64,000 nucleotides of DNA from Lichina pygmaea (Eukaryota; Ascomycota; Lichinomycetes; Lichinales; Lichinaceae), in the NCBI GenBank assembly GCA_963422465.1, contig OY730169.1, positions 1,054,001-1,118,000 on the forward strand, given 5' to 3'. Below the pieces are notes generated by a model. That model made no database searches and was not told where the DNA came from. It was given only the letters and a program-made list of their open reading frames with translations. Position 1 is the stretch's first letter; the number at the start of each line of letters is the position of its first letter. This document shows positions 4,730 through 61,066 of this stretch, piece by piece. The translations under genes were made by a program, and so were the position numbers.

Positions 4730-4939
4730 TCAGGACACACAAGTCTGCAGCTTGGCAAGCTGCTTAACAAGAGTATCCTGCTTGGCCTTATCAACAGCCA
4801 AATCCTCACAAAGGTTATCTTGGGTCATGTTCAGTGACTCCCAAGAAAGTGACACACAGAACTTCCCATGATGAGTGCACTCAGCGCACTTCAACTTATT
4901 GTTGTTGTCAGACATTCGGAAGCAGGGCTTGTGGTTCAA
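4730..4939 (-). pseudogene. Opposite-strand Cys-motif/coiled-coil ORF in Gypsy G1 copy a
   Basis: A 69-codon open frame on the strand opposite to pol, between the chromodomain and the 3' LTR. It contains KCAEC followed by a third cysteine (pattern C-x2-C-x3-G-x2-C) and then a heptad-like, charged stretch. The same frame occurs at the same place in G1 copies b and d, and a similar pattern sits in family D. Function unknown. It may be a small zinc-binding accessory protein of the element, or a chance frame kept by shared ancestry. Confidence 0.45.
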
Positions 4940-5092
4940 AACACAGAAGTCACACGGAGCAAGTGATACAAAGTTATGATCACAGATCTGGGCTGCCAGT
5001 TGTTTTCAGTAAGCAGAGGCATGTGATTTTGCAGACATACTCAAGAATTCATCAGGATGATGAATGAAGGAGAGAAGAGTAGTGTTACGACC

Positions 5093-5732
5093 CCTGGGAT
5101 AGGAGCCACTTATTTATAGGCAATCAGGCCATAGGCCAGGCAAGAGGACACTATGGAAGTCAAGTGACTAACCAACAAGGGGTCACGTGACTGTCAAGAC
5201 ACACGGGCAGCTTGACACAGCATGCATGAAGCATCAAGACAATCTCACCAGTCTTGATGCAGGATGCAGGAAGTATCAAGACAGCCTCACCAGTCTTGAC
5301 ACAGTATGCATGAAGCATCAAGACAATCTCACCTGTCTCAACACAGGATGTATAACATGGTGGGACTGTCAAGACAATCTCACCTGTCTTGACGCAGAGT
5401 GCATAACATAGTGGGACTGTCAAGATAATCTCACCTATCTTGATGTCAAGACTGTCAAGACAATCTTGATTGTCTTGACTGGCCAGCACTATATAGTCTG
5501 GTGATAGTTCCCTTATAGAACAATTATCTTCAACTTATGTTGTGATCCAGACAACTAGATCTACTTCAATACAATCCTTTTGTACGAAGCCACTGATCAG
5601 GTGTCATCACCACCACATTCCACCAAACCCCTTCACACTCCTTGACACTCCTCTCCTGCGAGAACCAACCTGCCTTCCACCTCTCACCCTAATCCTATAC
5701 TCGGATAGGACAGTATGGTACAGACCACAACA
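5093..5732 (+). repeat. 3' LTR of Gypsy G1 copy a
   Basis: A 640-bp LTR starting TGTTACGACC and ending in ACAACA, with TG...CA ends. A purine-rich tract (AAGGAGAGAAGAGTAG) lies directly upstream, as expected for a polypurine tract. The middle (about 5,200-5,490) is built of tandem modules, each with a TCAAGAC...GTCTTGA hairpin. Confidence 0.88.
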
Positions 5733-6042: not shown

Positions 6043-6687
6043 TGTTGCAGTCTGTACTATGCTGTCCTAACTGAGTATAGGATTAAGGGCAAGATGTGGA
6101 AAGCAGGTTGGTTCTTGCAGGAGAGGAGTGTCAAGGAGTGCGAAGGGGTTTGGTGGAATGTGGTGGTGGTGACACCTGATTGATGGCTTCATACAAAAGG
6201 ATTGTATTGAAGTAGATCTAGTTGTCTGGATCACAACATAAGTTGAAGACAATTGTTCCATAAGGGAACTATCACCAGACTATATAGTGCTGGCCTGTCA
6301 AGACAATCAAGATTGTCTTGACAGTCTCAACATTAAGACAGAGAGATTGTCTTGACACACCATGCACACTGTGTTGAGACAGGTGAGATTGTCTTGACAG
6401 TCCCACCATGTTATGCACTCTGCGTCAAGACTGGTGAGATTGTCTTGACATATTATGCATGCTGTGTCAAGATGGGTGAGATTGTCTTGATACTTCCTAC
6501 ACCCTGCATCAAGACTGGTAAGATTGTCTTGATACTTCATGCATGCTGCGTCAAGCCACCCATGTTTGTCTTGACAGTCATGTGATCTTTTGTCAGTTTG
6601 GTCACTTGACTTTCCATAGTGTCCTCTTGCCTGGCCTGTGGCCTGTCTGCTTATAAATAAGTGGCTTCTATCCCAGGGATTGTAACA
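6043..6687 (-). repeat. LTR of Gypsy G1 copy d (left LTR of the tandem)
   Basis: A 645-bp G1 LTR in minus orientation (plus strand TGTTGCAGTC...TGTAACA) with the same hairpin modules as the other G1 LTRs. It is the outer left LTR of a three-LTR tandem. The 5-bp target duplication TAAGA lies just to its left. Confidence 0.88.
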
Positions 6688-7206
6688 CTATCCTCCTCTC
6701 CTTCATTCATCATCCTGATGAATTCTTGAGTATGTCTGTGAAATCACATGCCTCTGCTTACTGAAGACAACTGGTAGCCCAGATCTGTGATCATAACTTT
6801 GTGTCACTTGCTCTGTGTGACTTCTGTGTTTTGAACCACAAGTCTTGTTTCTGAATGTCTGACAACAATAATAAGTTGAAGTGCGCTGAATGCACTTATT
6901 GTGGGAAGTCCTGTGTGTCACTTTCTTGGGAGTCACTGAACATGACCCAAGATAATCTTCGCGAGGATGTGGCCGCTGAAGAGGTGACGTGTGATGCACT
7001 CTTTGAACAGCTTGCTGCAGTGCAAGTTTGTCTGTCTTGGAAGTGAAAGGTTCTTGAAGATGCTGAGGGTTGAGTGAAGAAGAAGCTCCAGTGCCTTGTT
7101 GCTGAAATAGAGGTGGATGGTGAAGACTTGTCAGCAACAGTCATTGATGTGTCCGCACTGCAGGCTGAGCTGTTCAGTCCTGCTTCCGCTGGAACTGCTG
7201 CAGAAG
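6688..7206 (-). mobile_element. Gypsy G1 copy d: internal 3' end remnant (fossil)
   Basis: About 520 bp matching the last internal part of copy b (7,766 to about 8,280): the purine-rich tract beside the LTR and the region with the opposite-strand reading frame. It is cut at 7,206, directly against the next G1 LTR. Gag and pol of this copy are absent, so only an LTR plus the 3' end of the body remains. Confidence 0.8.
6855..7046 (+). pseudogene. Opposite-strand Cys-motif ORF in Gypsy G1 copy d
   Basis: 63 codons beginning MSDNNNKLKCAEC, homologous to the frames at 7,810-8,118 and 4,730-4,939, on the strand opposite to the element's pol. It keeps the C-x2-C-x3-G-x2-C pattern. Function unknown. 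Confidence 0.45.
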
Positions 7207-7765
7207 TGTTGCAGTCTGTACTGTACCGTCCTATCCAAGTATAGGATTAGGGTGAGAGGTGGAAGGTGGGTTGGTTCTCACAGGAGAGGAGTGTCAAGGA
7301 GTGCGAAGGGGTTTGGTGGAACATGGTGGTGGTGACACCTGATCAATGGCTTCGTACAAAAGGATTGTATTGAAGTAGATCTAGTTGTCTGGATCACAAC
7401 ATAAGTTGAAGATGATTGTTCCATAAGAGAACTATCGCCAGACTATATAGTGCTGGCCTGTCAAGATGATCAAGATTGTCTTGACAGTCTTGATGTCAAG
7501 ACAGGTGAGATTATCTTGACAGTCCCACTATGTTATGCACTCTGCGTCAAGACTGGTGAGATTATCTTGATGCTTCATGCATCCTGCGTCAAGACTGGTG
7601 AGATTGTCTCAACACTTCATGCATTCTGCGTCGAGACTTCTGTGTGTGTCTCGACAGTCACGTGACCCCTTGTTGGTTGGTCACTTGAGTTCTATGGTGT
7701 CCTCTTGCCTGGCCCACAGCCTGATTACCTACAAATGAGTGGCTCCCATCCTCTGGGTCGTAACA
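7207..7765 (-). repeat. LTR shared by Gypsy G1 copies b and d
   Basis: A 559-bp G1 LTR (plus strand TGTTGCAGTC...CGTAACA). It is the 3' LTR of copy b and abuts the truncated body of copy d. It is about 85 bp shorter than the other G1 LTRs because it has fewer hairpin modules. Confidence 0.87.
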
Positions 7766-7809: not shown

Positions 7810-8118
7810 ATGTCTGCAAAATCACGTGCCTCTGCTTACCGAAACCAACTGGCAGCCCAGATCTGTGATCATAACTTTGTGTCGCTTGCTCTGTATGACT
7901 TCTGTGTTTTGAACCACAAGCTCTGCTTCCAAATGTCTGACAACAACGATAAGTTGAAGTGCGCTGAATGCACTCATCATGGGAAGTCCTGTGTGTCACT
8001 TTCTTGGGAGTCGCTGAACATGACTCAAGATAACCTTTGTGAGGATTTGGCTATTGATGAGGCCAAGCGGGATACTCTTGTTGAGCAGCTTGCCAAGCTG
8101 CAGGCTTGTGTGTCCTGA
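7810..8118 (+). CDS. Opposite-strand small ORF of Gypsy G1 (Cys/His motif plus coiled coil)
   Basis: An open frame of about 102 codons from the ATG at 7,810, on the strand opposite to the Gypsy pol genes, between the chromodomain end and the 3' LTR. It contains CVLNHKLC, then eleven residues, then CAEC-x3-G-x2-C, and a charged heptad-like segment to the end. The same frame is kept in copies a and d. Family D has a frame with the same C-x3-H-x2-C and C-x2-C-x3-G-x2-C pattern at the same place (38,100-38,651). A zinc-binding plus coiled-coil fold is an inference; I know no function. It could be an accessory element gene transcribed from the 3' LTR side, or a captured gene fragment. Confidence 0.45.
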   Translation: MSAKSRASAYRNQLAAQICDHNFVSLALYDFCVLNHKLCFQMSDNNDKLKCAECTHHGKSCVSLSWESLNMTQDNLCEDLAIDEAKRDTLVEQLAKLQACVS

Positions 8119-11100
8119 AAGCGAAAGGTTCTTGAAGGTGCCAAGAGTCAAGCAAAGAAGAAGCTCCAGTGCCTTGTTGCTGAAATGGAGGTGGATGGTG
8201 AAGACTTGTCGGCGACAGTCATTGATGTGTCTGCGCTGCAGGCTGAACTGTTCAGTCCTGCTTCTGCCAGAACTGCTGCAAGAGGAGCTGGCAGTTTGTG
8301 AGGTTCCTGAGTGGTTCCCAGGTATTTTCCAAGTCTGGGTAGTTTTTCCACTTGACAAGGTATCACTGACCTTTTCTCTTCAGGATCTGTTCAGTCTTGA
8401 ATTCCTGTTCTTGCTCTGGTTAGTAATGAAATGTTTCCTGCAAGGGTGTGCTCTGGTCAGCTAACTTGATCATTGAGATGTGAAAGTTTGGGTGTACCCA
8501 AGCATCTCTCAGTAGTCGCAGTCTGATGTTGACTGGTCCAGTTCTTTCTTTGACTGAAAATAGTCTGATCTTGATATAGTCCAGTTTCTTTATTCTTGGT
8601 TTTTTAACTTTCCAATTTTTTGTGAGGAGGTAGACTTTATTCCCCCTCTTCAGCTGAGATACTATTTTTGATTTTTTGTCTATTTGGTGTTATATCTTTT
8701 CTGAGATTTCTTGAAGGTAGTGCCTTATTATTGTGTGCGTTTGTTGTAGGAGCTTGTTATGTTGGAGTGCTTTCTCCATGTTTAGTGAAGCTCTGCTTGG
8801 TATTCTGATGTTTGTGTCACCCAAAGTTGGTAAAGAATGGTGATTTCTTTGTTGAGTCTGATCTGTGCTAGTTAATTGCCAGCTGTGCCACTGGTAATAG
8901 CTGTACCTAATTGCTGTGGGTCTGGTTGATGTAATGCTGTAAATAAGTCTCCAGGACTTGGTTTACTCACTCTGTCTGGCTGTCAGTTTGTGGGTGATAG
9001 GCTGTAGACATTTTGGGTTTTATTCCTATGGCTGCACTGATTGTTTTCCAGTAGTTGGATGTGAAGAGCTTGTCTCTGTCAGTAATAACTGTGATTAGAA
9101 CTCTGTAGTCCCTGACCAATCTGTCCAGTAGGAGGTATCCCAACTGCTCTGCTGTGTGGGTTTCCTTGAATAGTACCACTATTAGGTATTTTGTGAATCT
9201 GTCCACAATCACCATAATTGAGTTGTAGGTGATTCCGGTGACTGGGTCTTTGGACTTGGGTAGCTTTGTGATGAAGTCTATTGACACATCTTCCCAAGGG
9301 CCTCTTGGTATTATGTTCAGGTGTCCTTCTCTGTATGGCTTATGTCTTCCATGTTTGTTTTTCTGGCATAGTAGATACTTGCTGATGTAGCTTGTGACAT
9401 GTTGTCAGAGATTAATAATATTGTTCCCTGCCTATTGGATAAGGTCTGTGGTTTTGGTGATTCCTGGGTGACCATGTGCTGGATTATTATAGTAGTTCCT
9501 TATTAGTTCTTCAGTGTCTTCTGCTGTAAGCTTGTTGATCTGTGGTTGAGGCACCAGGTTTCCTTGCTAGTCCTGCTGTAAGATCATTCCTTGGTGTTCA
9601 TCATATTCCATGTGGTCTTTTTGTCAGCTTAGTGTGTCTGCTCTCCTATTGTCTTGTCTGGGGGTGTACAAGATCTTGAACTTGTGTTGCCCTAGGAGTT
9701 CAGCCCATCTGACTTGTTGTCTGTTCAGCTTCTTGGTTATCATGAACATTGTCAGATTCTTGTGGTCTGTGAGAATGGTGAGTTCAGAACTGCTTTCCGT
9801 GTACACTCTCCAGTGTTCAAGTACGTTGACAACTGCCAGTAGCTCTTTGTCATGGATATCATAGTTTTGTTCTGCTTGTGACATTTTGTGTGAGTAGTAG
9901 GCAACTGGGTGCCACTTGCTGTCCACTTGTTGGCATAGACATACTCCCACCACTTGGTCTGAAGCATCTGTTTTGATTCATGTTGGCTGGCCTGTCTTGA
10001 AGTTGAGGAGAACTGGTTTCTTGGCGCAAGTGTCCTTAAGCTGTTGGAATACTTTTTGTTATCTCTCTGTCCACCAGTACTCCATATCCTTCTTCGTGAG
10101 TTCTGTCAGTAGTGTTACTATCTGTGAGTAGTTCTTGATGAACTGTCAGTTGAAGTTAGTAAATTCTAGGAAAGCTTGTACTTCCTTGACTGATGTCAGT
10201 GTTGGCCATTGCTGAATCACTTTGACTTTCTCAGAGTTAATCTTGATCTCTTTGATTCCTATGATGTATCCGAGGAATTCAACTTCCAGTTTGTTGAACT
10301 TGTATTTCTTTAGGTTGAGCTTAAGCTCTACCTCTTGTAGGCATCGTAGAACATCCTTCACATGTTTGGTATGTTCCTGTTGTGTTTTCAAGTAGACAAG
10401 AATGTTGTCCAGGTAGGTGATAGCTGTTTAGTCCAGGTGTGCTCTGATGATGTTGTTGATCAATACTTGACATGTTGCTGGTGTGTTTGTGAGTCTGAAT
10501 AGTATAACCAGATACTTGTAGTGTCCGTATCAGGTTCTGAAGGCTGTCTTCCATTCTTCTCCCTTTTTCATGTGTATCAGGTTGTATACTCCTTTCAAGT
10601 CCAGCTTGGTGAAGATTGTAGCTTGGCTGATCCTGTCTCGCAATTTGTTCACATTTGGTAACAGATATCAGTTTTTGATAGTAATGTTGTTGAGTTTCCT
10701 GTAATCCACACAAAGTTGAAGACTTCTGTCTTTCTTTAGTGCAAATAGTATCAGGTATCCTGCTGGTGATTGAGATTCTTGAATAAAACTCTTTTTCAGG
10801 TTTTCCTCCAGGTACTTGCGAAGTACTTAGAGCTCTTTCTCTGATAACTGGTAAATTGGTCCAAATTCTGGCTCTGTCCCTGGTTGCAACTTGATCTCAT
10901 GATCCCAAGGTTAGTGCTTAGACAACACTGCTGTTGTTGTCTCTTCCTGAAAGAGGTTATCATACTCAGGTCAGTACTCTTCAGGGATCTCCAGAGGGTT
11001 AACAACTTCCTCTCTCTTCATCTCTGACTGTTTGGCCACCTGGTTCTAGAGTGTGCCTGTCAAGGCAGACTTCTTCTCTTGAGAGTTATCCTTTCTATCA

Positions 11101-13105: not shown

Positions 13106-13752
13106 TGTTGCAGTCCGTACCGTGCTGTCCTAACCGAGTATAGGATTAAGGGTAAGATGCGGAAGGCGGGTTGGTTCTCACAGGAGAGGAGTGTCAAGGA
13201 GTGCGAAGGGGTTTAGTGGAACGTGGTGGTGGTGACACCTGATTGATAACTTCATACAAAAGGATTGTATTGAAGTAGATCTAGTTGTCTGGATCACAAC
13301 ATGAGTTGAAGACGATCGTTCTATAAAGGAACTATCACCGGACTATATAGTGCTGGCCTGTCGAGACGATCAAGATTGTTTTGACAGTCTCGACGTCGAG
13401 ACAGGTGAGATTGTCTTGACGTGCCATGCACGCTGTGTCAAGACGGGTGAGATTGTCTCGACAGTCCCACCATATTATGCACCCTGCGTCAAGACCGGTG
13501 AGATTGTCTCGACATGTCATGCACGCTGTGTCGAGATAGGTGAGATTGTCTCGATGTTTCCTGCACCCTGCATCGAGACTGGTGAGATTGTCTCGATGCT
13601 TCATGTATGCTTCGTCGAGCCACCCGTGTTTGTCTCGACAGTCACGTGACTCTTTGTCGGTTTGGTCACTTGACTTTTCCATGGTGTCCTCTTGCCTGGC
13701 CCGTGGCCTGTCTGCTTATAAATGAGTGGCTCCCATCCCAGGGATCGTAACA
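13106..13752 (-). repeat. 5' LTR of Gypsy G1 copy b
   Basis: A 647-bp LTR (plus strand TGTTGCAGTC...CGTAACA). It is richer in CG dinucleotides (many TCGAGAC words) than the other G1 LTRs, so it seems least changed by C-to-T decay. The right-hand copy of the TAAGA target duplication follows at 13,753. Confidence 0.9.
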
Positions 13753-21148: not shown

Positions 21149-23097
21149 TCATCGAATGGTCATGTGCTTGACCAACTGCTCGCCCTTGACGCTGGCGCTC
21201 CCTTCTCTGCCCTGCGAGCCCGACCCGGCCTTCTTCTCGAAGATCTTCCAGAACTTGAGGCTCTCGTCGGCCGCTAGAAAAGGCGGGAGTAGTCAGCATC
21301 ATGTAACCGACGCGTAGTGATGGACCGATTCCCCAAACGGAATTCAGACTCACCTGCTGTGGCTAGGATCTGACCGTCTGGGCTGAGAGAGCTGTGCAGT
21401 ACCCGCGTCTCGTGGGCCGGGATCTCAATGTTCTTGACCAAGGACGGGTAGCTCCAGATGCTGAGCGAGTTGTCCGGAAAGCCGCTCGAGCTGACGATCT
21501 CGCGGTAGTGCGTGCTCCACCGAAGGCTGGTCACCTGCGAGCCCGTGTCGATGCTGTTGGTGCGCGCGCCCGTGGTCGTGTTCCAGAAGTGGATGTGACG
21601 GTCGTAGGAGCCTCCACCGGTAGCGAGGAGGTTGAGCTGCCAGGGACACCAGCTGAGAGCCTTGACGGCGGCGCGATGGTTGGTCTTGCTGAACTTGGGC
21701 GCCGCCAACGAACGGGCATCCCAGATCGAGACGAGGTTGTCATTCCCGCCCGTCGCTAGCTGGGCGCCGTCCGAGCGCCACTCGAGCCCGCAAACCTCGG
21801 ACGTATGCGAGACCAGCTCGGCCACCTTGTGCTGGGCGACCCGAACGTCGTGGTTGAAGACCAGGCCGCTGCGAGCTCCGGTCGACAGGAGGTGCTTGTT
21901 CCAGCCCATCACGCCGACGCGGCTCTCGTGGCCGTGCATGCTCCGCAGCTTGGTGCGTTCCTCCACGTCCCAGATCTGAACCTCGCCGGTACCGAGGCCG
22001 ACGCCGACGTAGGCTCCGTCGCCGCTCCACCTGACGCTCGACACGTACGTGTCGGGGGACGTCTCGAGCAGGCTGTTCACGGTCCCCGTCTCGGCCGACC
22101 AGACATAGACGTTTCGCTCGAGCCCGATGGCGACCTGGTTCCCGGAACTCCAGTCGAGCAGATTGAGGTAGTAGTCGTCGACCAAGCCGGGCGCGTCCAG
22201 GACCCGTTCGGGGGCAGTCAAGACTCGTCGCCGGAACTGAGCCGACGCGTTTGCGGGCTTCAGTGGCCGGTTGTACTGCGAGCGGAGGTCGATGGGCTTG
22301 GACGACTCGGGCGGGGCCGGCTTGAACGCCAAGATGCGTGTGTTGAGCGACACTCCACACGCCGAAGCCAGCGAGGACTGATAGGCCAGCGCATCGGGCG
22401 AGGGCCGAGCATACGAGCCGCCGACGTTCTTGTTGTCGTCATCGTCGTCGAGGCCGAGCCTCTCCAGAGCGGCAGCGGCATCGTCTTCGGCCGCACGTCC
22501 ACCGACTTCGAAGGCGCTTGCAGCGTTGGCCAGAATCGACGACCCGTCGTTGCCCGTGGTCCGTGGCCGTTGCAAGTCCGAGTCGAGCTTTGCCCTTCCG
22601 GGGGTGGCAAGGGCTTCGCTGGCGGTTCGGTTCGGGATGTAACGGTCGGCCGCATTGTGTGCTAGCCGGAGCGTGGTCTTGGCCGTCTTTGTTCGGATGA
22701 CGCCTTCCCTTCGCGACCGTTCCTTTGAGGGCGTCTGGCCGACCGTCGAGCCGGTACCGGTCAAGGTCCACTCAGAGACACCGAGCTCCAGGCGCCGGGG
22801 CGAGTTGGCCGAGCGGACGATGTTGGACTTCGGCGAACTACGGTGGGTCTGTCGCGAGGCCGACTTGGAGAAGTAGGACGACAGATTGGTGGCACAGCCG
22901 ACTTGAGTGCCGGCCCGGCTTGCGACCTGAGATTGCTTTGGCGGGGTGAAAGGCGACGTCTGCCGAGAGACATTGGAGGCGAGGCTAGTTGTCCGCGTCC
23001 GCGGCGAAGGAGTCAGCGGCATGCGGCCGCCGGCGGTCCGGCTCGAGAAGATGCCATGGTGGCTCTTGAGCGGAGTCGACACCGTGGCGGTTGCCAT
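21149..23097 (-). CDS. CDC20: CDC20-type WD40 activator of the anaphase-promoting complex
   Basis: A 622-residue protein from two exons: 23,097-21,354 and 21,273-21,149, with an 80-bp intron (GTGAGT...TAG) close to the 3' end. Cdc20 brings substrates such as securin and mitotic cyclins to the APC/C and is the target of the spindle checkpoint. The disordered N-terminus carries the C-box DRYIP at about residues 151-155. It is followed by RILAFKPAPPE and seven WD40 repeats, with VLDAPGLVDDYYLNLLDWSS, HDVRVAQHKVAEL and GGNDNLVSIWDARS. The protein ends in Ile-Arg (KHMTIR), the IR tail that docks on APC/C. DYYLNLLDWS and HDVRV favour Cdc20 over Cdh1. The start is the first ATG in frame (MATATVSTPL). 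Confidence 0.9.
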
Positions 23098-23991
23098 TGT
23101 TTCGACCGATGGATGCGGAGAGGGAGCTGATGGTCCGAATTCGCCGAACAGGAGTCTACTCTGTAACAACGATGCTGTGTAAAGGTTAGTTTGAAAGTCG
23201 ATTAACCGACGGTGCTTGTCGCGTTCGTGGTCTTCGTGGTGCTCCCGGAGTCGAAATGAGGTCTCAAGAGTCTCAACCTAATGGATCCTGAGGTGTCTGG
23301 TTAGTAGATTTCGCTTTCGCTGTCTGATTTCGTTCTCGGAGACCGTCGATTGACCGCAACCCAGTCGCAGAGGATAGCAATGTCGCAATCGGTGGGTCGA
23401 TCAGCGTGATGTACTCGATGAGATCAAGCAATGACGAGATCTAATGGATTGGAATAGCTATCTTGCAAGCGGATTGAAGAAGTGAAGATGGGAGTCGAGC
23501 TGTGGGAGAAGAGGATTGTGGGAGATGCGCAGGAAAGGTGAGGAGGGAAGAGGAGGAAGAGGAAGAGGAGAGCAGTCGAGGACGCTTTTATGGGCGGGCG
23601 TAAATAGAGCTGCATCAACAACGACGAGCGTTGTCGAGGCAACGACGCGGGCCGGCGTATGCCAGATTTGGTAATCACGCTCTAGCCGAATCGGGATAGA
23701 GCCCCCCTAATGTACCCGCGTACATACGTACCCTCGTACCTCGTACCCTCGTACCTTTTGCCAGAGCTTGGTAGTCGCAGTACATACGTACTGTACAGTA
23801 CGTTCGGAATGTTTAGGAATCGTTCCTTCGATACGGCATCTACGAGTACTTCACCGGCCCGTGCCTGAGTGGAGAGCCACGATGATCCCGACAGCGGCGA
23901 GAACTGCCTGTCAGTAGGCAGGTACAGTACAGTCCAGTTCATCACTATTGACAGGCCGGCGGCACGGCTTGAGCCGTCATTATCCGCCGCC
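23098..23991. promoter_or_regulatory. Divergent intergenic region CDC20 / kelch-BTB gene
   Basis: Contains the promoters of two divergent genes. It includes a purine-rich tract near 23,520-23,580 and a cluster of GTAC words at about 23,711-23,800 (GTACATACGTACC and TACGTACTGTACAGTACG), forming short palindromes. No gene seen. Confidence 0.5.
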
Positions 23992-26407
23992 ATGCAAGGA
24001 TCCGTTGCCGTGGGCGGAATGGGCATCGTCGGCGCCCACGTCTCCGCCGCCAATCCACACGGACTCGTCGAGCACTTCCTGACTTCGGCCGCTCTCGGTG
24101 CTGCGTCAACCACGACGACGGCTCCGATGACAGTCACTCCGTCCCGACGCCGCGCCATCAGCGGCGATGGCACCAGTCCGAAGGTGTCGCGGACGACGGG
24201 ACAACGGCCGTCGTGTCTGGTCAACGCCTCGGTCACGTACTGCGGCGACAATCAGATCTACGCGTTTGGCGGCTTCGACAGCTACACCGACGAAGGTGAG
24301 CATCACCTTTTGCGCGATGGAGGCTCGACGAACCGTCTGTCGCATGAGGCTAATGCTGGCTCAGTCTACAACCACGTCCTGAAGCTGGATCTGACGACCT
24401 TGCGTTGGACCCTGGTCGACAACTATGGCGACATTCCAGGTGTTCGGATGGGTATGTGGTTCAATGGCTTCTGAGTGACGTTGGACTGGCTGGCTGATGC
24501 TCGTCACGCTCCAAGGCCATACTGCCACTCTCTATCAAGGTGAAAAGCTGATCATCTTTGGCGGCGAGAATGAGCATCGGACGTATCTGTCCGACATCGT
24601 CATCTTCGATCTCAAGACCGCCTACTGGACCCAGCCTGCCGTGAGCGGCCCGATCCCCCGAGGGCGTGCTCGTCATGCGGCGGCGCTGTACAAGGACAAG
24701 CTCTTCATCGTCGGCGGCATGACGGGCGCCGATTCGGTGGCGGACGACATCTGCTACCTTGACCTGACGACGCTGACCTGGTCGCGTGCTTGGACCTTTG
24801 TGAGGCGATTCGACCAGGCCGCGTGGGTCTGGGGCGACAAGCTGTGGGTCTTTGGCGGGCTGGGCCAAGACATGAGCCGCGACGGCGAGGTCTGGTGGCT
24901 GGACCTCAAGGCCGACCCTGCCTTCGGCGTCGACACCGCACCGGCCAGACCCGTGGCTCGGGTCGACGCCGGCCGCATCTTCAGCCCTCGATCGGCTGCG
25001 CCGGTTCATCCGAGCTACGGCGCAGGCGGAGGTCTTGGGATGGCGGGGCTGGGTTACGGTGTCAACCAGGGCGCCGGAGTGCACGCGAACGCCTCTCTGG
25101 CGATGCGACCGTCCCAGACGCCGATCGCGCCGGGCATCTCGTCCCTGAACTTCCTCTCGAGTCCCGAGTATCCGCCGCAGGCGTCGGGTACGCACTTCTA
25201 CGTCTACTCGTCCAACGCGCTGCTGGACTTTGTGACGCCGGCCAACACCATCCGGCCGACCGACTGCGGCCTGGCCGCCCTGGATCTGCCTTCGCTCCGC
25301 TGGCAGAGGCTGGCCGAAGGTGCCGAGGTCTTCAACCCCGGCTATCGCTGGCACTACTGTGCCTCCAACGCCGAAGGCACCAAGGCCTGGCTTCTCGGCT
25401 GCGCCACCGACCGGCAGAGCGGGCACGACGGCGGCTTCGAGGAGTACCTGTGCGACGTCTTGGCCATCGACCTCCGGCGCTTCGGCCTCCTCGGCAACTC
25501 GACCGTGTCCGAGCTGGGCGTCCGGTCTAGCGGATCGACGACGATGCGCAGCCACGTGGATTCGTCCCTGTGCGGGCTCGGCGTGGATATGGCCCGCATG
25601 TTCGACCGCAGCCCGGACCTCGGAAGCGGGGCCGATTTCGTAGTCACGGCCGACCCGGACGAGGACCGCCGTTCCTCCGACGACGTCGACACGCCATCGT
25701 CCCCGTCTCCCGTGCCAGGTACGTCGGTGCCGGCGGCCCAGCCGCCACGGCCGGCATCGCCCCCGATCCACGTCCACCTGTTGATCCTGAAGGCTCGGTG
25801 GGAGCACTTCCGGCGTCTCTACGCGTCCGGCATGATCGAATCGCGCACCAATAGCATGCACATCCCGGAGCCGTACTCGGTCGTGCGGGCCTTTCTCTTC
25901 TACCTCTACACCGACAGCATCGGGCGACATCCGAGCTACGGCAACGAGCTCGACTCGAGCGAGGTGGCCGGCCTGCTCGTGATGGCCAACATGTACGACC
26001 TGCCGGGCCTTCGACTGCTCTGCGTGCACCGGCTCGGGCGCGAGCTTGAGGTCGAGCACGCCGCCGTCGTGTGGGAGCGGGCCGGCATGGCCAACGAGGA
26101 ATGGCTGCGACGGCGGGCGGCCAGCTTCTGTCTCAAGCACTGGGGCCGCGTCGTGCGGACCGACGCGTTCCGGAAGCTGAGCCGCGAATCGCTGGGCGAG
26201 CTCTGCGAGGAGGTCGACACGGAAGGACGCGTCATCAACGGCGGCGAGCTCGAAGCCGTTGGCGGTCTAGGTGGCGGGCGGCTCGGGCTCGGCGCCTGGG
26301 GCCGTGCGAGCCCGAGCGTACGGGCCAGCAGCTCGGGGGCCGGGCGAACCGGCGACAGCCTCGACGAGGTTGACGGCGACGACGACGGCGAGATGGAGAT
26401 GGGCTGA
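23992..26407 (+). CDS. Kelch-repeat protein with C-terminal BTB domain (Ral2/Mds3-like)
   Basis: A 760-residue protein from three exons: 23,992-24,295, 24,365-24,451 and 24,516-26,407 (introns of 69 and 64 bp). Kelch motifs fill about residues 75-330 (IYAFGGFDSYTDEVYNHVL, LIIFGGENEHRTYLSDIVIF, LFIVGG, LWVFGGLGQD). A BTB/POZ-like segment near residues 555-620 shows HVHLLILKARWEHFRRLY and PEPYSVVRAFLFYLYTDSI. This kelch-then-BTB design is known from S. pombe Ral2 (Ras1 signalling) and yeast Mds3/Pmd1 (pH and sporulation control). I cannot tell which is the closer relative, so no symbol is given. The start is the ATG with the better context (CCGCCATGC); an upstream in-frame ATG at 23,869 would add 41 residues. 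The C-terminus is Gly- and Asp-rich. Confidence 0.85.
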
Positions 26408-37595: not shown

Positions 37596-38019
37596 TGTTA
37601 AAGGCCGGGCCGAGTTCACACAGAAATCGGTACGGTCTGTTGCTTCACAGGGCGGATTCTGGACAGGGACTTGATAGAGAAATAGACAGATAGGGAACTC
37701 TCTCTGTACTATTGTCTCAGTATGATGTGTGTATGTGTGTTCAGCCTGGAGAGCTAATCCCTCTGGGCCCTTTGGGTGGTCTTTATACAGATGCCCTAGG
37801 GGGGGGGTCTTCTCCGAGGGGTATCATCCTTTTGTGTGGACAAGCTCCTCGCTTAGCTCCTGCTCGTCCACCGGACAAGCTCCTCGCTTAGCTCCTGCTC
37901 GTCCACCGGACGAGCTCCTTGCTTAGCTCTTGCTCATCCACCAGATCAGTCGGATGTTGTTCTGTATGACTAACACTCCTCCCTTGCTTACCTAGGCTGT
38001 TCCGGCCTAGGCCTTAACA
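37596..38019 (-). repeat. 3' LTR of Gypsy family D
   Basis: A 424-bp LTR (plus strand TGTTAAAGGCC...CCTTAACA). It contains three 35-bp tandem units at 37,839-37,943; its partner at 60,608-61,066 has four. A polypurine tract (minus strand GGAGGGAGGGGATAG) lies at 38,020-38,034. Confidence 0.88.
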
Positions 38020-38099
38020 CTATCCCCTCCCTCCAAGGGTTCTGTCCCCAGATCCTTTTCTCCCTACTCCTCTTTTGTCATGAACCAAGATTAGACAAC

Positions 38100-38651
38100 T
38101 TGAACTTGTCATCGCAGTTCTCTCTCTTGTCGCATTGGCAAAATAGGTAAGGAATCAAAAATCGCATGCGGTGCTTGTTGTTGCGACCACGCTAAGTGCG
38201 TTGTGAGTTCTGTATCATCTTTTTGTCATCAGTGCATTGAGAAGGGTTGTCGCTGCGACCTTCATCTCTCGGAATCAGAATGGAAGAAGATGGAACTTGG
38301 GCGCGAGCAGCTCAAGGCTCAGCTGCGAGAGACTGATGACCAATTGTCAAAGTTGCTTCCCTGGTAGATCTGCCTCCGCCGGCAGCTGGGTCATCTCTCA
38401 CAGAAGGAGGCTGATGCCATCTGTCATGAGCTGTCAGCCATCAAGGATCAAGAGTCTCTTGATGCTCAGGAACAAGAGGCTCTCTGTGTTATCTGTGAAC
38501 AGGAGGCCAGTCAGGCTGCTGCTCCGCCATCCTTTGAGGATGTCTTCTCTTCAGAGACTTTGGCTTCTCTCAAGCTGTTGTCCCTGTCAGACCTGGTCAC
38601 TGCAGGTTTGCTTGGTAGTAATCCACCAGCTTCTGGTTTGTCGCAGAGCTG
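38100..38651 (+). pseudogene. Opposite-strand Cys/His-motif and coiled-coil ORF region in Gypsy D
   Basis: On the strand opposite to pol, between the 3' LTR and the chromodomain and overlapping its end, a reading frame shows CCCDHAKC, eight residues, then CHQC-x3-G-x2-C, followed by a Glu/Lys/Gln-rich heptad-like stretch and an acidic, Leu-rich end. The Cys/His spacing (C-x3-H-x2-C, then C-x2-C-x3-G-x2-C) equals that of the opposite-strand ORF in family G1 (7,810-8,118), although the nucleotide sequences differ strongly. This copy is broken. Function unknown. Confidence 0.45.
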
Positions 38652-39613
38652 AAGTTCTCAGTTGGTTCCCACGAATTCTCCTCTTTGTCAAATCCTAACC
38701 ACTTCACCAGGTACTTGGTTTTCTGTCTGTTTCTTTGACTATCCAGGATTCTTTCAACATCGTACTCTTCTTTGTCGTCCTCGAAGTTCTATTCTGTCTT
38801 GATCTCTGCGTCACTGGGTGGTGGTTCAAGCAGTGAGACATGGAATACTCAGTGTATCCTTGCTTTTCGTGGTAGTCTCAGTTGATAGTTGACCTTCCCA
38901 GTGTGCTTCTTGATTTCAAATAGTCTGATTTGTACGTGGTCCAGCTTTTTGCTCGGTCACTTTGAGCGCAGGTTTTTTGTTGATAGGTAGACCTTATCCC
39001 CCCTTTCCAGGGTTGGTCCCTTCAACCTTTTGTTGTGTAATCAGCGGGTGGTGGTGTTCTGGGCACAGTTGATTGGTGTTTTCATCATCTTGTGCATAGC
39101 AGTGAGTTTATCAACATCAACAACATTGCCTTCTGCTGTTGCCTGCCATCAGGGGTTTCTTCCGTAGTTTGCAAAGAACAGTGTTGTCCCTGTCACACTG
39201 TGTTGCTGGTTGTTGTACGCAAACTGGGCTATTGGTAGCAGTTCCACCCAGTTATCCTGCTGGTGGTTGACATAGTGTTGTAGATACTGCTCCATCGTCT
39301 GGTTTGTCCACTCAGTTTGTCTGTCGATTTGTGGGTGGTAGGCTGTTGACATCCTTGTATCAATGCCAAGTTGCCTTGTCCACATGTTCCAGAATTTCGA
39401 GGTGAAGAGTTTGTCTTAATCTGAGATGATTGTAGGGAAGTCAGGAACTCCAGCTCTGAAAAGAAAACTTGCCAGACCAATTCTTCCAGTCCTGATTTGC
39501 AGTAGCAGCCTTGCCTCAGCTTTCTGTAACTTTTTGTAGAGCTTCAGATTGTTTTTGTGTGGCTTTTGACAGAAAGTCTGCCAGCCTGGATAGCTTCTTC
39601 TTTTCTTCTCTTC

Positions 39614-42445
39614 CTATTGGTCTTCCCACTCTTTAGTAAAGAGCTTTTGTAGTTCTTTCTTTGAACTAGCCTGGTTAGTAGTTATTTGACTTAACCAAGT
39701 GAATTTCCACTTAGGAGAGATAGTTGAGGATTCCTTTAAAGGTTTCTTCAAGAGAGAGGTATAGCTGGAAATAGTGGAAAAGATACTGTCAAGAAAGTAT
39801 TTGAGAGGGGAGTTTTGAATAGAAGAAAGAAAACAGGCAGTGTGAAATTTAAAGTAGAGATCTAGAGGTAGAAGAAAAAGCTCACTCTCTAATAGAAAAG
39901 AAGGAGTGGCTTTGAAAGCACCCCCAATAAGTCTTAGGCATCTGTTTTGAAATAAAACAAGAGAAGAGATATTGGAGGATTTTCTTAGAGGGTTAAACCA
40001 GATCCCCACTGCATAGCTCAGTAGAGATCTCAGTATAGCAGTGTACACCAGACGTGATGTGTGAACTGGAAAGTCCCAAGTAGAATAGGAAGTTCTAGAA
40101 AGAGAAGAGAGTGCTTTCTGTGCTTTTTGAAGAATAATCCTCTGGTGTTTGTGCCAGTGGAGCTTTGTATCTAGGTACACCCCAAGTACTCGTACTTCTT
40201 CTTTTGGTTTGAGAATCACATTCCCCAGTCTGAGCTTGAGCTGAAGATTGTCTGATCTTCTTCTGGAAAAATGAAGTATTTCATATTTCTCAGGTGAGAA
40301 GACTATTCCATGTCTTGCAGCCCAGGATAGACATTTGTGGTGTATGTTCTTTAACTTCAGAAGGTTACTTTTCAAGGAGTGACCAAAAGCAAGCAGATTT
40401 GTATCATCTGCAAACCCCAGGGCAGATACACCAGAAGAGGGAGTATGCACAGTCTTATGCAATTCAGAAATGTAGAATAGAAAAAGAATAGGGGATAATG
40501 GAGAACCTTGAGGAACTCCACAATGAATAGGAATAGAATAAGACTCAGAATCATCAAAGACAAGAGTGGTAGAGTGCTTATCACAGAAGGAGTAGATCCA
40601 GGAAGCTAGCCAGGCAGGTATTCCTTTTCTTTTCAGAATTTGCTGTAGTATCTTGGGGAGAACTCTGTCATAGGCTCCTGAGATATCCAGTGAGAGTAGG
40701 GATGCAACCATGCCTTCCTTCCAGACTTTTTCCACTTGGGAGGTTAGAAGGAAAAGTGCTGCTTCTGTGGATCTTCCTTTCCTAAAGCCCATCTGGATAT
40801 CTGGCAATAGTCCAGCTTCTTCTGCTATCTTGCTTAGTCTGGCTGCAGCAATAGCTTCCATCAGCTTGCCTGTTGTGTTTAGCAGAGCTATAGGGCGCCA
40901 GGCTTTAGCTTGATTGTAGGTTCCCTTGCCAGGTTTCCTCAAGCAGACTGTTTTTGCACTCTTAAATCTTTCAGGGAAGTACTCCAGTTTCCAGCATGTT
41001 GAAGTCAGAATAGCTAGAGCTTGGCAGAACCTAGGCCCCAGAGCTCTCAGAAATCCATTTGGCAGCTTATCTCTCCCTCCTGCTGTGAAAGGTTTCTTCT
41101 TGGCCAGAATTTGCTCCACTTCTTCACATGTTACCTCCTGGGAGAGCTGTATCTCAGAGATAGTCTGGGAGCTTTCTGAGCCTGGTTCTGGAACTAGAGC
41201 TTTTGGAAAGAACTGTTGTGAGAAGGCTTTAGTCTTTTCCTCAAAGGTTTTAGCTATTCCTTCTTGTGTTTCCAGGTCAGGAACCAGAGGAAGATCAGGA
41301 GTCTTGTTGGCTTTGGACTTTCCCCACTTTGCAAGCTTCCAGAACTTTGAAGAGCTGGCCAGCTCATGGATTTGGTGTCTGAAAGTGTTCTGTTTTCCAT
41401 CTCTGACTGCCTTTTTCTTGAGCTTAGTTGCTTGCTCAAGTTCCTCTTGACTTGCTTGCCTTTTTTGCACTTTTCTTCTTACTCTTCTTTCCTCTTTAAC
41501 CTTGTTTTGGATCTCTTGATTCCACCAGGGAACTGAGTGGCCAGATTGCTTCTGGAGCTGTGTGGATTTGCTTGCTATTTCTTGGAGAAAGTTGTCAAGA
41601 TACTCCAAGTACTCATCCACTTCATATTTGTCTTGGAAGTGGAAGGGCAGGTGTAGCTTCTCACACTCTACTCTTGCAAGGTTTGAGTCCAGTGTTCTCC
41701 AGTTTCTTTCTGGTTTCCAGATTTTCCTTGGAGGATCCAGGTCCAGGCAGGTTAGTACAGGTCTGTGGTCAGACCCATGAAAGAACTGAAGAGCCACTTT
41801 AGAGAAAATCAGAGAGTTAGAAAGAGAAGAAGAAATAAAAGACAGATCAATAGAAGAACATGGTTTTTCAGAAAGAGATCTTGCTCTGGTAGGGGTGAAA
41901 GGTGCAATAGCTAAATCCAGATTTAAATCTTTCATTAGGTCTTGAAACTTGTTTGCAGTCTCAGAGTACAGTCTTCTTTTCTTTGACCAGTCTGGGTGGT
42001 GAAGATTTGAGTCTGTGAGAAGAATATATTGTCCTTGTTCTTGTAAAGCATTTTGGAGTAAACAGAGAAGAGCTTCTGATGCCTCTGTGTAGTTTTCTTG
42101 ACTTGATGGGGTGAAGTAGAGATTATGTACTCAAAGAGAAGTAGGAGAGTTTTCCAAGTAGATTTCAAGAGAAACAAAGTCTTTATTCCAGAAGGTAGGA
42201 TGAAGAGAAGAGAGTTTCAGATTTTTATTAATAAGAAAAAGTGTTCTGCCAATCTCTGAACAGTAGAGAGGAAGAAAGGAAGAGAAAACAGTTGAAGTGC
42301 TTATTTCTAGGTGAGGGTTTTTCCAGGGCTCTTGAAGTACAATAATATCCACCTCTTGGAGAGCTGAGGTTGCTAGCAGTAGCTCTTGGACTGATTGGCT
42401 TTTTTGCACATTATACTGGAGAAGTGTCAGCTTTGTGTCTTTCAT
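39614..42445 (-). pseudogene. LINE 1 ORF2: endonuclease / reverse transcriptase
   Basis: The start is MKDTKLTLLQYNVQKSQ at 42,445, overlapping the ORF1 stop as ATGA. The apurinic-type endonuclease domain shows LQEPWKNPH, TDSNLHHPDW and SDHRPV. The reverse transcriptase shows MGFRKGRSTEAALFLL, SLDISGAYDRVLP, GVPQGSPLSP and FADDTN. Against LINE 3 there is a TGG-to-TGA change at 42,131-42,133 and a stop at 39,614-39,616 within a Trp-Lys stretch; both are G-to-A type changes. Further on, the C-terminal Cys/His motif is lost with the 3' end. Apart from these stops the frame stays open, so decay is recent. Confidence 0.88.
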
Positions 42446-43837
42446 GCAGACATCTCAGCATCAAAGATCTTGAAGGAGTTAGCTGGTAGCTTTCCTCCAG
42501 AGTTGGCTGATCTTGAACAAAGAATTTGCACTTCTGGGAGTGCACCTCTGAGTCGCTCTGAGCTTCTGCTTGGCTCAGCTGTTTTACGTTTTTTCCCTCC
42601 TGCTAGAGACTGAGAGAGAGGGAAAGACATAACTGGGGGGGGGGGGTTGTAGAGCTGGAACAGAGGTAGCTGTTGGGATCTCATATTTTCCTGGGCGTGT
42701 GTTCCATGCTTCTCTTGCCTTCTTGGCTGCTTCCTGGCGTACTGGACAGACACTGGCCCAGGCTGGGTGAGCTCCTCTGCAGTTGCAGCATTTTGGCTTG
42801 AGAAGCTGTTCAGGAACTTGGCAGGCTCTCCTTTCATGCTGGCCTCCACAGGCACCACACACAGCTTTGTTCTTGCAGAAGCATGCTTGGTGCCTATAGC
42901 CAAAGCACTTGAAACATTGTGCAATAACTGTGTCTGCCAGGAAAGGTTCTGCTTCATGCATCCTGTGCCCCAGCACTAGCCCACTCTCAATCAAAAGATT
43001 AGCTTGTTCAGGGGTAGCCAGATCCAGGTGGAGAGAGGTAACTGGCTTCTTTTGAGCTATAGCCTTCTTAGACCAGTAGGCTCTCAGGATGGTGATTTGT
43101 TTGCTCAGAGATAGGTTGCTGTTCTGGATTATCTGGCAGGTTTTCTCCAGGTCTTCAGGTTGGATATCTTCTGTTCTGACTCCATGGATCAGAACTGGGA
43201 ATCTCTTGGGCTGGATGGTTGCTTCCTTTGTGAAGATAGCTGATACCCAGGCAGGGTTTTTCTCTAGGAAGACTTTAGTCTCTTGGCTTTCTGTGTTAAT
43301 AAGGATATTCCCTGAAGGAAGTTTCCTTACTGCTCTGACCTGCTTGTTGTAGGGGCTGGGTAGTCTGTCTTGAAGAGCCTGGAAAAGCTGGATGTGAGTT
43401 CTATTAGCCATGTCAGGTGGCTGGATACCAGGATGTACAAGAACTTCTTTGAGAATTCTTGCAGGTAGAGGGATTTGTGCTGGAATAGATTTTTGGACAG
43501 CCTGGGCATATGATGGCTTGGCTTCTTGTTTGTCCAGCCGCTTGTTGATATTCTCCAGCTCCTGGAAGATTCTGTTGGTGAGGCTAGTGGAGCTAGACTG
43601 GGCTTCTGTAGAGAAGGAGTTCTTTTTGATATTTTCCCAGCTTTTCAGAATAGATTCTGGGACTGGTTGGGTTTTGATCCAGGAGTCTACTAGTTTGTAG
43701 TCATTCTGGGGAGCTGGTTGGAGGGTAGGAGAGCTGGACTGGGTGCTAGGCAGACTGGAAGCTGGTTGGGAGAGTATAGCTGGTGTAGCTCTGGTGTTAC
43801 TTTCTCAAGAGGTGGGTTTTTTCTTCTTGGGAGCTAT
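42442..43837 (-). pseudogene. LINE 1 ORF1: zinc-knuckle nucleic-acid-binding protein
   Basis: The gag-like ORF1 protein that coats LINE RNA. Three Cys/His knuckles are seen at about 42,920-42,760: CFKCFGYRHQACFC, CGACGGQHERRAC and CCNCRGAHPAWASVC. The start codon position (43,837) reads ATA where LINE 4 has ATG, a G-to-A change, and an early stop follows within the first dozen or so codons. The frame changes at a G-run (plus strand about 42,636-42,648), so slippage there separates the knuckle part from the C-terminal part that overlaps ORF2. Confidence 0.8.
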
Positions 43838-44331: not shown

Positions 44332-46608
44332 TTTTGTGAGTTCCTTCAGTAACTTGACTCAAGTCACTGTCAGTTAGTCTGAGCTAGCCACAGAAATGCA
44401 AGTCTTGTCCAGCTTGTAGGTAGTGCAGAAGTGCCAATCCACAAGCTTTGGTGGATCTGGTGTTGTGATACTGTTGTTGACAGTCTTACTGGTGATGTAC
44501 TCAAATATAACATAAGAGTTTTGGTGGTAGCACCATGTTTGCTGAGCCTAGTGGATATCAGAGTTCTCAGAAATCAGCTATAGCTATCCCAGAACAAAGT
44601 CATACTGTGAATCTGATAGTGACAAACAACATACTTCAAGTGTGTTGTTGTCTGTGGCTGTCAGTGAGACAGTATTCAATATTGTGGTTGCTGTTTTTGA
44701 TTTGATTTGATTCTTACACTGATTCGGCTGTTAAGCCATACAGAACTTCTTGAAGGATTTTTGTTTCTGGTAGACTTGACTCGGAGACCTCACACATTTA
44801 CTGTACACCTTGTGGTTTGTAGTGTACATACTGTGGGAAAACCCCAAACCCTGTAGGGGAAATAGGAAAACCACAGTAATAAGGGTTTTGTGGATCTTGA
44901 CAGATATTGGATAAGCTATTTCTTGGGGGTTTTCATACATCTTGCGAGGAGTACATTTTAGACAAGTTCTATGAATCTCAGGAGTTTTTTGTGGCAGAAT
45001 GTGGGGTGGGTCAGATTTGAACTGACGACTAGTTTAGTCAGGTTCTCCAGGCCTGACACCACTAGTTCTGGGTTATGGGTGCCATGTAGTGGGAAACTCT
45101 CACCAGCTTCCCGCTACACCATGCCGCCCCTTGTGGTTGCTGTAAGCAGCTATCTTATGGCTATCCAGTGTCCAGGCTCCAGTGTATCTATGCAGGACAA
45201 GACTCAGTTCCTTGACTGTGTACTACAACACAAAGTTGTTCTTGGTACCTGAGTTCACCAGCACTGTCCAATGTTTTATACTGGGTATTCCACAGATGTT
45301 GAGGTAAATTGTTATCAACCTCACAGCTGCAGTTCAGTTATGTCCAGTGATAAGCACAGAAAGGTTGGTTGCTGGTGTCAGCTTGTAGTTCTTCTGGATT
45401 ATGCAGTCTGCAGTCTGATAGTTTGCTGATCTGCATTCAAAGTACAGGTTTTCTTGCTTTCTGTGTTCTTGCTCTTAAGGTAGTAATAGCTTGCACACTC
45501 TGTGAACTCTGGGACTGCAGTCTTGTCTGTTCAGTCAGTTGTCCAGCTATAACTCTCTGTCAGTTAGGCACAAGTACATGTTGGTAGACTTTTGATTTCT
45601 GTTGTATAGGTGCAAACTCCTGGAGTATAGCTTTCATGCCAATCCTTCTGCCCACAGCTTTGACTCACTATTGTACTGACAATACCCAGGGGTTGGCAGA
45701 GACCTGTAGCTTTCTAAGAATAGTCTTGGGTCAGTCCAACAGTTACTTCTTTTCTAGTTGTTGGCATACAACTCCAGGTGCAGTGCTTAGCTTGTCACTT
45801 TCTCAAGAGTCTGCAGTATATCATAATGTCAAGTTATCTTGCGTTGGAAGTCTGGCAGTAGTTTGATCAGGAGTTCCTTAGTGTGTTCCACATCTGACTT
45901 CAGCTCTAGGTCTTTGCTAAGCCTGTCCAGATAGTTGACAAAGTCTTGCACTGACTGCCTGGATTGCTGATAGGTAGTGTTGTACTTTCACAGTACTGTG
46001 AGCTGTCTGTTTGTCAGATGCTCAAATTGATTCTTGAGAAGACTTTTGTACTGGTCTCAAGTTATTGTCTCTATTTTGCTTTTCTTCTAACAGATCTGCA
46101 TCACACTCTTAATAGCTTCATCAAGGTACTGCATTGCTTTGAGAACTATCTTCTTATTGTCTATAATCTCTGAGATCTCAAAACCCAGCTTACATTGATG
46201 CAGGTATTTCTGCAGTTCTTGCACACTTCTCCCAGAGTACTTTGTGATACCCCTAAGTTTGAAATCCCCTCTGTACATCTAGGTAGTTGACATCCCTGCC
46301 CAGAACAGTCCTATAACTACATCACTGTGGGCCAGCTTATTTACAGCCAGTCCTATGTATCTGCTGTCTCCCAGCCCCATGGCTTCAGTTATGACCTGGT
46401 GACTAAGCACCTGTAGTTCAACTCACCTTGCTATAAGGTTTGACTGCTTGTCAAGCACCTTCTTCCTCCACTTGAGCTTCTTGAGTTTCTCTGTCAGCAA
46501 CAAGAGAGTTCTATCACTATACCTGAGGGTACTGTGTTCATCTGTGACAATCTTCTCCAACACACACTTCTGTCCCATATCTCCACTGTTGTGTGGTGGT
46601 GATACTAC
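44332..46608 (-). mobile_element. Gypsy family E, 5' half: gag and protease (fossil)
   Basis: Minus-strand remnant downstream of the LTR at 46,609-46,882. A gag-like segment is seen at 46,278-46,087 and a retropepsin-like stretch near 45,280-45,230. SINE 1 is inserted at 44,705-45,130; LINE 1 starts at the left edge. Together with the LTR and the pol half on the other side it forms a head-to-tail arrangement sharing one LTR. Broken many times. Confidence 0.6.
44705..45130 (-). mobile_element. SINE copy 1 (tRNA-derived head, LINE-like tail)
   Basis: 426 bp on the minus strand, flanked by perfect 13-bp target duplications TTGTGGTTGCTGT (44,692-44,704 and 45,131-45,143). The head begins GGGGCGGCATGGTGTAGCGG, containing an A-box-like TGGTGTAGCGG. 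The B-box-like GTTCAAATC sits in a perfect T-arm (GTCAG, seven-base loop, CTGAC) followed by CCACCCC, which can pair with the 5' end as an acceptor stem with one mismatch. The 3' end GTGTAAGAATCAAATC plus repeats matches the tail of LINEs 2 and 3. A SINE of this kind would be transcribed by RNA polymerase III and copied by the LINE machinery. Confidence 0.8.
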
Positions 46609-51800: not shown

Positions 51801-52053
51801 AAATTAGGCTTATAGATGACCGCAAAATTCTTCTGTTAACAAGAACAAGTGTTCTCCCTAGCTTCTGGCTTTGTAAAGGGTAGAAGGCTGAGAATGTTGT
51901 AGAGATGCTTGATTCTTGGTGGGGGTTTTTCCAGGGTTCTTGCAGAGTGATGATGTCCACTTTCTGTAGTCTAGGGTTTGCCAGTAGAAGTTCTTGGCAT
52001 GTCTGGCTTTTCTGGACATTGTACTGGAGAAGGTTAAGTGTGGAGTAACTCAT
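48816..52053 (-). pseudogene. LINE 2 ORF2: endonuclease / reverse transcriptase
   Basis: Starts MSYSTLNLLQYNVQKSQ at 52,053, where the ORF1 stop and ORF2 start overlap as TAATG. The endonuclease (LQEPWKNPH, SDHRPVHTI) and reverse transcriptase (MGFRKGRSTESALFLL, GVPQGSPFSPILFLF, FADDTN) are clear. The C-terminus keeps the motif CTCGFGEETAQHITFFC (C-x-C-x7-H-x4-C type). The frame is interrupted by stops after 51,712 and 51,010, and the part from about 50,615 is in another frame, so there is at least one indel as well. Not functional. Confidence 0.85.
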
Positions 52054-60607: not shown

Positions 60608-61066
60608 TGTTAAAGGCTGGGCTGGGTTCACACAGAAGCCAGTACAGTCTGTTGCTTTGCAGGGTGGATTCTAGACAGGGACTTGGTAGAGGAATAGACA
60701 GATAAGAAGCTTTCTCTGTACTATTGTCTCAGTACGATGTGTGCATGTGTGTTCAGCCTGGAGAGCTAATCCCTCTGGGCCCTTTGGGGAGTTTTTATAC
60801 AGATGCCCTGAGGGGGGGGGTCTCCTCAAGGGGTATCATCCTTTTGCGTGGACGAGCTCCTCACTTAGGGACTGCTTGTCCACCAGACAAGCTCCTCGCT
60901 TAGGGACTGCTCATCCACCAGACAAGCTCCTTGCTTAGCTCCTGCTTGTCCACCAGACAAGCTCCTCGCTTAGCTCTTGCTTGTCCACCGGATCAGTCAG
61001 ATGTTGTTCTGTATGACTAACACTCCTTCCTCGCTTACCTGGGCTGTTCCGGCCTAGGCCTTAACA
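60608..61066 (-). repeat. 5' LTR of Gypsy family D
   Basis: A 459-bp LTR (plus strand TGTTAAAGGCTGG...GGCCTTAACA), 35 bp longer than its partner at 37,596-38,019. It has four 35-bp tandem units (60,851-60,990) against three. Its right end abuts a truncated G1 LTR. Confidence 0.88.

Follow-up and report, generated by a model that had tools for sequence, protein, structure and literature searches.

The Gypsy retrotransposon family D of Lichina pygmaea and its relative D3 carry, on the strand opposite to gag-pol and next to the 3' LTR, an antisense gene that is real and under selection, because the frame is homologous in D3, the dN/dS ratio between the two families is about 0.19, and the cysteines of the protein are kept. 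For the antisense ORF at the corresponding place in another Gypsy family, G1, the evidence for a gene is weaker. Taking all analyses together, we estimate a probability of about one half that a real antisense gene encodes a DNA-binding regulator that depends on zinc, works as a dimer and acts on the LTRs of its own element.

The window, which is the whole stretch of 64,000 nucleotides that was analysed, contains copies of G1 in its left part and the second Gypsy family, D, with LTRs at 37.6-38.0 and 60.6-61.1 kb; further copies were searched for in the genome of 32.47 Mb on eight contigs. Both families have a Chromo domain at the pol end (Pfam, 1.2e-15 and 1.6e-13) and an LTR pair, and are therefore chromoviruses. 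In the G1 element designated G1b, the 3' LTR (7207..7765, - strand, with TG...CA ends) and the 5' LTR (13106..13752, -) enclose a pol gene whose chromodomain-bearing end lies at 8253..8698 (-). The corresponding features of D are the 3' LTR at 37596..38019 (-), the 5' LTR at 60608..61066 (-) and the pol end with chromodomain at 38489..39157 (-), with the stop located between 38489 and 38669 depending on the copy. The order is the same in both families: 3' LTR, a short spacer rich in pyrimidines, which on the other strand is presumably the polypurine tract, then the antisense ORF, whose ATG lies 44 bases from the LTR in G1b and 60 bases in D, and finally the pol end. Pol ended at 8252 in 54 of the 68 G1 copies sampled, and at 38489 in 15 of the 30 D copies, with ends from 38570 to 38669 in the rest; the antisense frame of G1 stopped at 8310 in 61 copies and at 8301 in the other 7, and that of D stopped at 38652 in all 30. 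From these positions, the tail-to-tail overlap of pol with the antisense ORF amounts to about 60 bases in G1 and at most about 160 bases in D; apart from this short overlap, the ORF lies between the pol end and the 3' LTR.

Other elements and host genes were also observed in the window. Between the two D LTRs are LINE-type reverse transcriptase ORFs at 39614-43411, 48816-53243 and 54912-58336 (-), the second and third of which were tested with Pfam RVT_1, while the likeness of the first to the third was judged from repeats. An inverted pair of 435 bases (44696-45130 and 47535-47969), 94% complementary, is separated by 2.4 kb. Host genes encoding a CDC20/Fizzy WD40 protein (21274-23169, -) and a Kelch-BTB protein (24497-26407, +) are located between the retroelement blocks.

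In G1b, the antisense ORF occupies 7810..8301 (+), with pol on the - strand; the part at 7810-8118 runs from ATG to an in-frame TGA (8116-8118) and encodes 102 amino acids, the same frame continues to a stop at 8299-8301, and the first of six characteristic cysteines is replaced by Tyr. The middle part of the ORF in a second G1 element, G1a, lies at 4730..5005 (-), where the frame is open from 5005 down to a stop at 4730; stops cut it on both sides and all six cysteines are kept. A decayed copy was read from the sequence of a G1 fragment at 6855..7046 (+). The D ORF is located at 38080..38652 (+), and in the window copy it contains in-frame TAGs, one of them at 38365-38367. The four stretches listed in the earlier note (7,810-8,118 +; 6,855-7,046 +; 4,730-4,939 -; 38,100-38,651 +) were all recovered, each inside one of these frames.

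Natural copies elsewhere in the genome have frames of about 165 codons in G1 and about 190 codons in D. At least 150 copies were scored in each family. For G1, 68 natural copies were analysed, namely the 8 that matched best and 60 chosen by hand across the 150 matches listed; for D, the best 30 of the 150 matches listed were taken. Among the matches listed, most copies of each family have the ORF, and the protein is conserved, as judged for D from the D-D3 comparison and with weaker evidence for G1. The D frame began with the ATG at 38080 in all 30 copies. The whole frame was free of stops in 12/68 G1 and 12/30 D copies; 56 G1 and 18 D copies had at least one stop, and in 16 of those 18 the stops were found within the first 20 codons only, so that 28/30 D copies were open from codon 21 onward.

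Given these stops, the G1 ORF might be a dispensable passenger, such as a captured host piece or an old gene, while the D/D3 gene is still working. The 56 interrupted copies and a within-G1 in-frame omega of only 0.73 are consistent with such a passenger. However, all six cysteines are kept in 63 of the 68 copies, 12 copies are fully open, and 137 of the 143 in-frame stops are TGA and cluster at five codons, the pattern expected if C-to-T decay followed insertion. Furthermore, pol is also broken in the same copies (0/69 rows open over 1 kb), and we regard a passenger as very unlikely.

The natural copies encode six regularly spaced cysteines, C-x2-C-x6-C-x8-C-x2-C-x6-C in D, with x11 instead of x8 in G1. 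The motif proposed earlier, C-x3-H-x2-C followed by C-x2-C-x3-G-x2-C, fits both families but leaves out the first cysteine, and its His is not fixed, being Arg in the D3 copy. All six cysteines were kept in 63/68 G1 and 26/30 D copies and were invariant between D and D3 in a four-sequence alignment, whereas most other cysteines varied more (kept in 13 to 25 of 30 copies in D, and in 47 and 55 of 68 in G1); one further cysteine is fixed within G1 and one within D, the latter not shared by D3. Residue shuffles of one protein each reproduced the pattern 3 (D), 8 (D3) and 0 (G1) times per 100,000, and a six-frame scan of 361 kb (the window and 98 loci) found 76 occurrences, all of them D or G1 ORFs by a signature filter, with one (L010) assigned to D by eye. 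The rarity in both analyses indicates that the cysteine spacing is beyond chance. The cysteine block is followed by a Trp, by a charged helical, coiled-coil-like stretch and by a Ser/Pro-containing tail.

The cysteine clusters of fungal Zn2Cys6 (Gal4-type) factors are spaced C-x2-C-x6-C-x5,12-C-x2-C-x6,8-C, a spacing that the G1, D and D3 proteins all follow. The PROSITE pattern PS00463 fits D and D3 but not G1. An alignment of the G1 and D proteins with hhalign lined up the six cysteines with a P of 0.072, or 0.013 with D3 added, values that do not establish a common origin. Of the claim that the ORF is conserved in two families, the shared layout and cysteine spacing therefore hold, but it does not follow that the G1 and D proteins descend from one ancestor.

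The D3 family was revealed by a search with the tail of locus L065, which holds part of a D relative that has decayed. Positions 1-600 of this locus (C2 near 4083500) belong to a third D-like family, also decayed, whose antisense ORF is interrupted here by an inserted G1 element, and about a dozen decayed copies similar to it were seen among the matches listed. In the one D3 copy read (L100), the homologous antisense frame is intact over 176 codons, and in 54 of the 61 matches listed at 84% identity or more, the D3 frame was free of stops over the 124 codons searched. Over 30 pairs, identity between the D and D3 proteins was 59-65%.

Selection on the D/D3 protein was assessed by Nei-Gojobori counts. 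Ahead of the pol overlap, dN/dS between the 30 D copies and D3 averaged 0.19 (range 0.145-0.231; largest bootstrap upper limit 0.41), 30 values that are not independent since a single D3 sequence enters all of them. Synonymous differences are near saturation (pS about 0.6), which makes the exact figure soft and leaves the direction firm. Over the whole ORF the mean was 0.26 (0.22-0.31), and the other frames gave 0.94, 1.65, 0.95, 0.36 and 1.5; the value of 0.36 belongs to a reverse frame that has its third positions in common with the ORF and contains stops. A ratio near 1 across copies had been named in the earlier note among the grounds for abandoning the gene, and the D-D3 comparison, made between families, gives no such grounds. 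The D-D3 ratio and the invariant cysteines also bear on the idea that the antisense RNA alone matters, through double-stranded RNA or small RNAs, with the coding frame incidental. The overlap with pol would indeed give sense-antisense RNA, as raised in the available text of plant reviews (PMC7264820), but selection has acted on the protein, and we consider an RNA-only function extremely improbable.

Selection on G1 was judged within the family. The in-frame omega, relative to a context-matched placement of the differences, was 0.73 in G1 and 0.65 in D, in each case the lowest of the six frames, with a reverse frame of D at 0.69; these within-family values are weak evidence, because the differences are mostly transitions, of the type left by C-to-T decay after insertion. 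Transversions seen in at least two copies fell on codon position 3 in 2/2 columns in G1 and 5/7 in D, and the LTR controls were flat. In the pol controls, D showed the expected third-position excess and G1 was flat (17, 18, 19), which makes the transversion test unreliable for G1. Two D subfamilies (L009-L038, 37800-39440) share the LTR and antisense ORF with few fixed differences, and their pol differs strongly from about 38700. Such a mosaic would be expected after an exchange of either pol or the LTR-ORF end, and the subfamilies are useless for a selection test because their LTR and ORF are alike while pol differs.

Comparisons with known domains gave weak matches. None of the G1, D and D3 proteins reached the cut-off of Pfam Zn_clus (PF00172), which matched 3/6 D proteins weakly (best E 0.011; 8.5 bits, where the member shown scores 21) and was absent from the Pfam matches of G1 and D3. 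The D proteins matched unrelated families equally well or slightly better (DNA_pol3_finger, 0.0082). A search of the genome with the PF00172 profile found 27 places, host zinc-cluster genes, none of them in the window. Scans of viral contigs for the pattern gave 116 and 28 matches, none confirmed as relatives. In profile comparisons with the PDB, the LEU3 zinc cluster was matched at E 1.1-1.4 and RING finger 141 at E 0.9 (0.9 versus 1.1 with the D/D3 profile). For the D piece, the model predicted from a single sequence had a mean pLDDT of 70, showed strands and one helix, and placed a confident helix after the cysteine block, with blocks of 91-92; over the cysteine block itself its confidence was low to middling, and no helix followed the first C-x2-C. 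Foldseek found no match for the D model. The G1 model was poor (mean pLDDT 43).

Some of these results would also suit a RING- or PHD-like fold with a role in chromatin or ubiquitin pathways, for example against silencing. Besides RING finger 141 and the strands with one helix in the D model, a zf-PHD-like match (E 0.0034) was found in 3/6 G1 proteins. Yet the proteins have six cysteines in two C-x2-C-x6-C halves rather than eight ligands, and the His is lost in D3, which makes such a fold quite improbable in our judgment. The predicted product, as far as its cysteine spacing and following helix tell, resembles a shortened Gal4-type DNA-binding protein. Among the roles suggested in the earlier note, regulation is favoured on the same grounds, while RNA binding and defence against silencing gained no specific support.

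The LTRs contain features that may regulate such a gene. In G1, a TATAAAT motif facing the antisense ORF is located inside the LTR about 80 bases ahead of the ATG (7730..7736, +; 65/68 copies, with TACAAAT in the window copy), and TATATAG (7444..7450, -; 65/68 copies) lies on the gag-pol side of a 42-bp tandem array, which in the 3' LTR of G1b occupies 7535..7656 between the two TATA motifs. The 3' LTR of D has a 35-bp tandem array (37838..37942) in the same relative place, with three units in one LTR and four in the other, and the window copy has TATAAAG on the gag-pol side; no TATA motif was seen on the ORF side of the D LTR. Arrays were observed at 5211-5443, 6335-6574, 7535-7656 and 13477-13638 in G1 LTRs and at 37838-37942 and 60851-60989 in D LTRs, with 42- and 35-bp unit numbers that differ between LTRs, even within one element. 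The earlier proposal that the ORF is a gene for an accessory protein, read from the side of the 3' LTR, is supported by its occurrence in at least 150 copies of each of two families, by the D-D3 ratio and by the G1 TATA motif.

Inverted repeats that could serve as operators in the array units were mostly no better than chance: among seven units, one was rare (32 of 2,000 shuffles) and the others were matched by 228 to 1,672 of 2,000. CGG-type sites are the targets of Zn2Cys6 proteins, and CGG/CCG counts were below expectation in G1 LTRs (7.0 versus 9.4) and slightly above it in D LTRs (7.9 versus 5.8; 27/30 copies). The tandem arrays are candidates for regulatory regions and no more.

With no evident DNA target in the array repeats or CGG counts, a zinc-binding coiled-coil protein acting on RNA or Gag particles instead of DNA, as a chaperone, an export factor or a self-restriction factor of which p22 of Ty1 is the model, has to be weighed. 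The small size, the cysteine-rich block and the helix are compatible with such a protein. On the other hand, the cysteines have the spacing of a DNA-binding cluster and not that of a zinc knuckle, C-x2-C-x4-H-x4-C; the Pfam zinc knuckle had no match in G1 or D proteins; and antisense expression would part the protein from the genomic RNA in time. We consider an RNA- or Gag-acting protein unlikely.

For the DNA-binding regulator that we prefer, the following mechanism is proposed. The accessory gene starts 44 (G1) or 60 (D) bases from the edge of the 3' LTR and ends in the tail of pol. Its mRNA would most likely arise from a promoter in the 3' LTR that works in the antisense direction; in G1, a TATA motif faces the ORF. 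The product of 165-190 amino acids, with its Zn2Cys6-like block, charged coiled-coil-like helix and Ser/Pro-containing tail, would bind a metal, probably zinc, and dimerise; Gal4, Ppr1 and several other proteins have a zinc cluster joined to a coiled-coil domain for dimerisation (PMC5412356). The protein would most likely be nuclear, act in dimeric form on the U3 region common to both LTRs, with the 35-42 bp tandem arrays as possible targets, and set the balance of its own expression against that of gag-pol, as HBZ and APH-2 do in HTLV. More tentatively, and with clearly lower probability than the regulator as such, a Gal4-like dimeric factor might bind the U3 arrays and switch the element between gag-pol and antisense expression, as a convergent counterpart of HBZ that selection has kept in several families. 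Where solo LTRs lie close to host promoters, such a factor might affect these promoters too.

An antisense gene in this place is of a known kind, and the zinc-cluster layout is possibly the new part. The source paper for brtn, one such gene, is reportedly Zhao et al. 2011, Virology 417:248. The brtn gene belongs to Boty-like Gypsy elements of Botrytis cinerea (PMC8365987, PMC7264820, PMC4227169, PMC5987419); like the G1 and D ORFs, it is an extra gene of a fungal chromodomain Gypsy element, antisense to gag-pol and drawn between pol and the 3' LTR. The likeness is one of position and description, and the portions of these sources available give no function for it. A transcript with similarity to both BRTN and pol has also been recorded from Monilinia (PMC5987419). 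In plants, the aORF-3R genes (gene23 of maize Grande, rice RIRE2, TRP28 of Retand) are likewise antisense ORFs between pol and the 3' LTR that are kept in most copies, and a regulatory role has already been proposed for them (PMC7264820, PMC11963269). DNA binding was predicted for the Retand protein in a 2025 paper (PMC11963269). Retand also often has tandem arrays in the aORF region, whereas those of G1 and D sit in the LTR; moreover, Retand is not a chromovirus, and TRP28 has another domain. In the available text of a 2020 review, LTR-element antisense genes are described without clear similarity to other proteins (PMC7264820), and the parts of PMC3248453 and PMC10799480 available do not mention antisense genes. 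In the titles and abstract openings surveyed, no antisense gene of an LTR retrotransposon was described as encoding a zinc-cluster protein.

HBZ of HTLV-1 and APH-2 of HTLV-2 are likewise antisense genes transcribed from the 3' LTR, and HBZ has a dimerising domain of DNA-binding type and acts on 5' LTR transcription via U3 elements (PMC3736048). HBZ differs in being a bZIP protein, spliced and unrelated, and the likeness is a working analogy only. Fungal Zn2Cys6 factors share with the G1 and D proteins the cysteine spacing and a cluster followed by a helical, coiled-coil-like stretch, but the G1 and D proteins are below the Pfam cut-off and much shorter, and their LTRs have no consistent CGG sites. 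Fungal hypothetical proteins presumably exist with a block very similar to that of G1 and D, and the G1 and D proteins, with BRTN, may form one widespread family.

In conclusion, the antisense genes of LTR elements in plants and Botrytis have been noted without a known function, and a selected gene with a zinc-cluster-like layout would give them a concrete and testable role, that of a retrotransposon under its own transcription factor. For genome annotation, such antisense ORFs may be miscounted as host genes. Because the product of the preserved gene appears to resemble a DNA-binding protein of Gal4 type in shortened form, self-regulation of these elements is conceivable.
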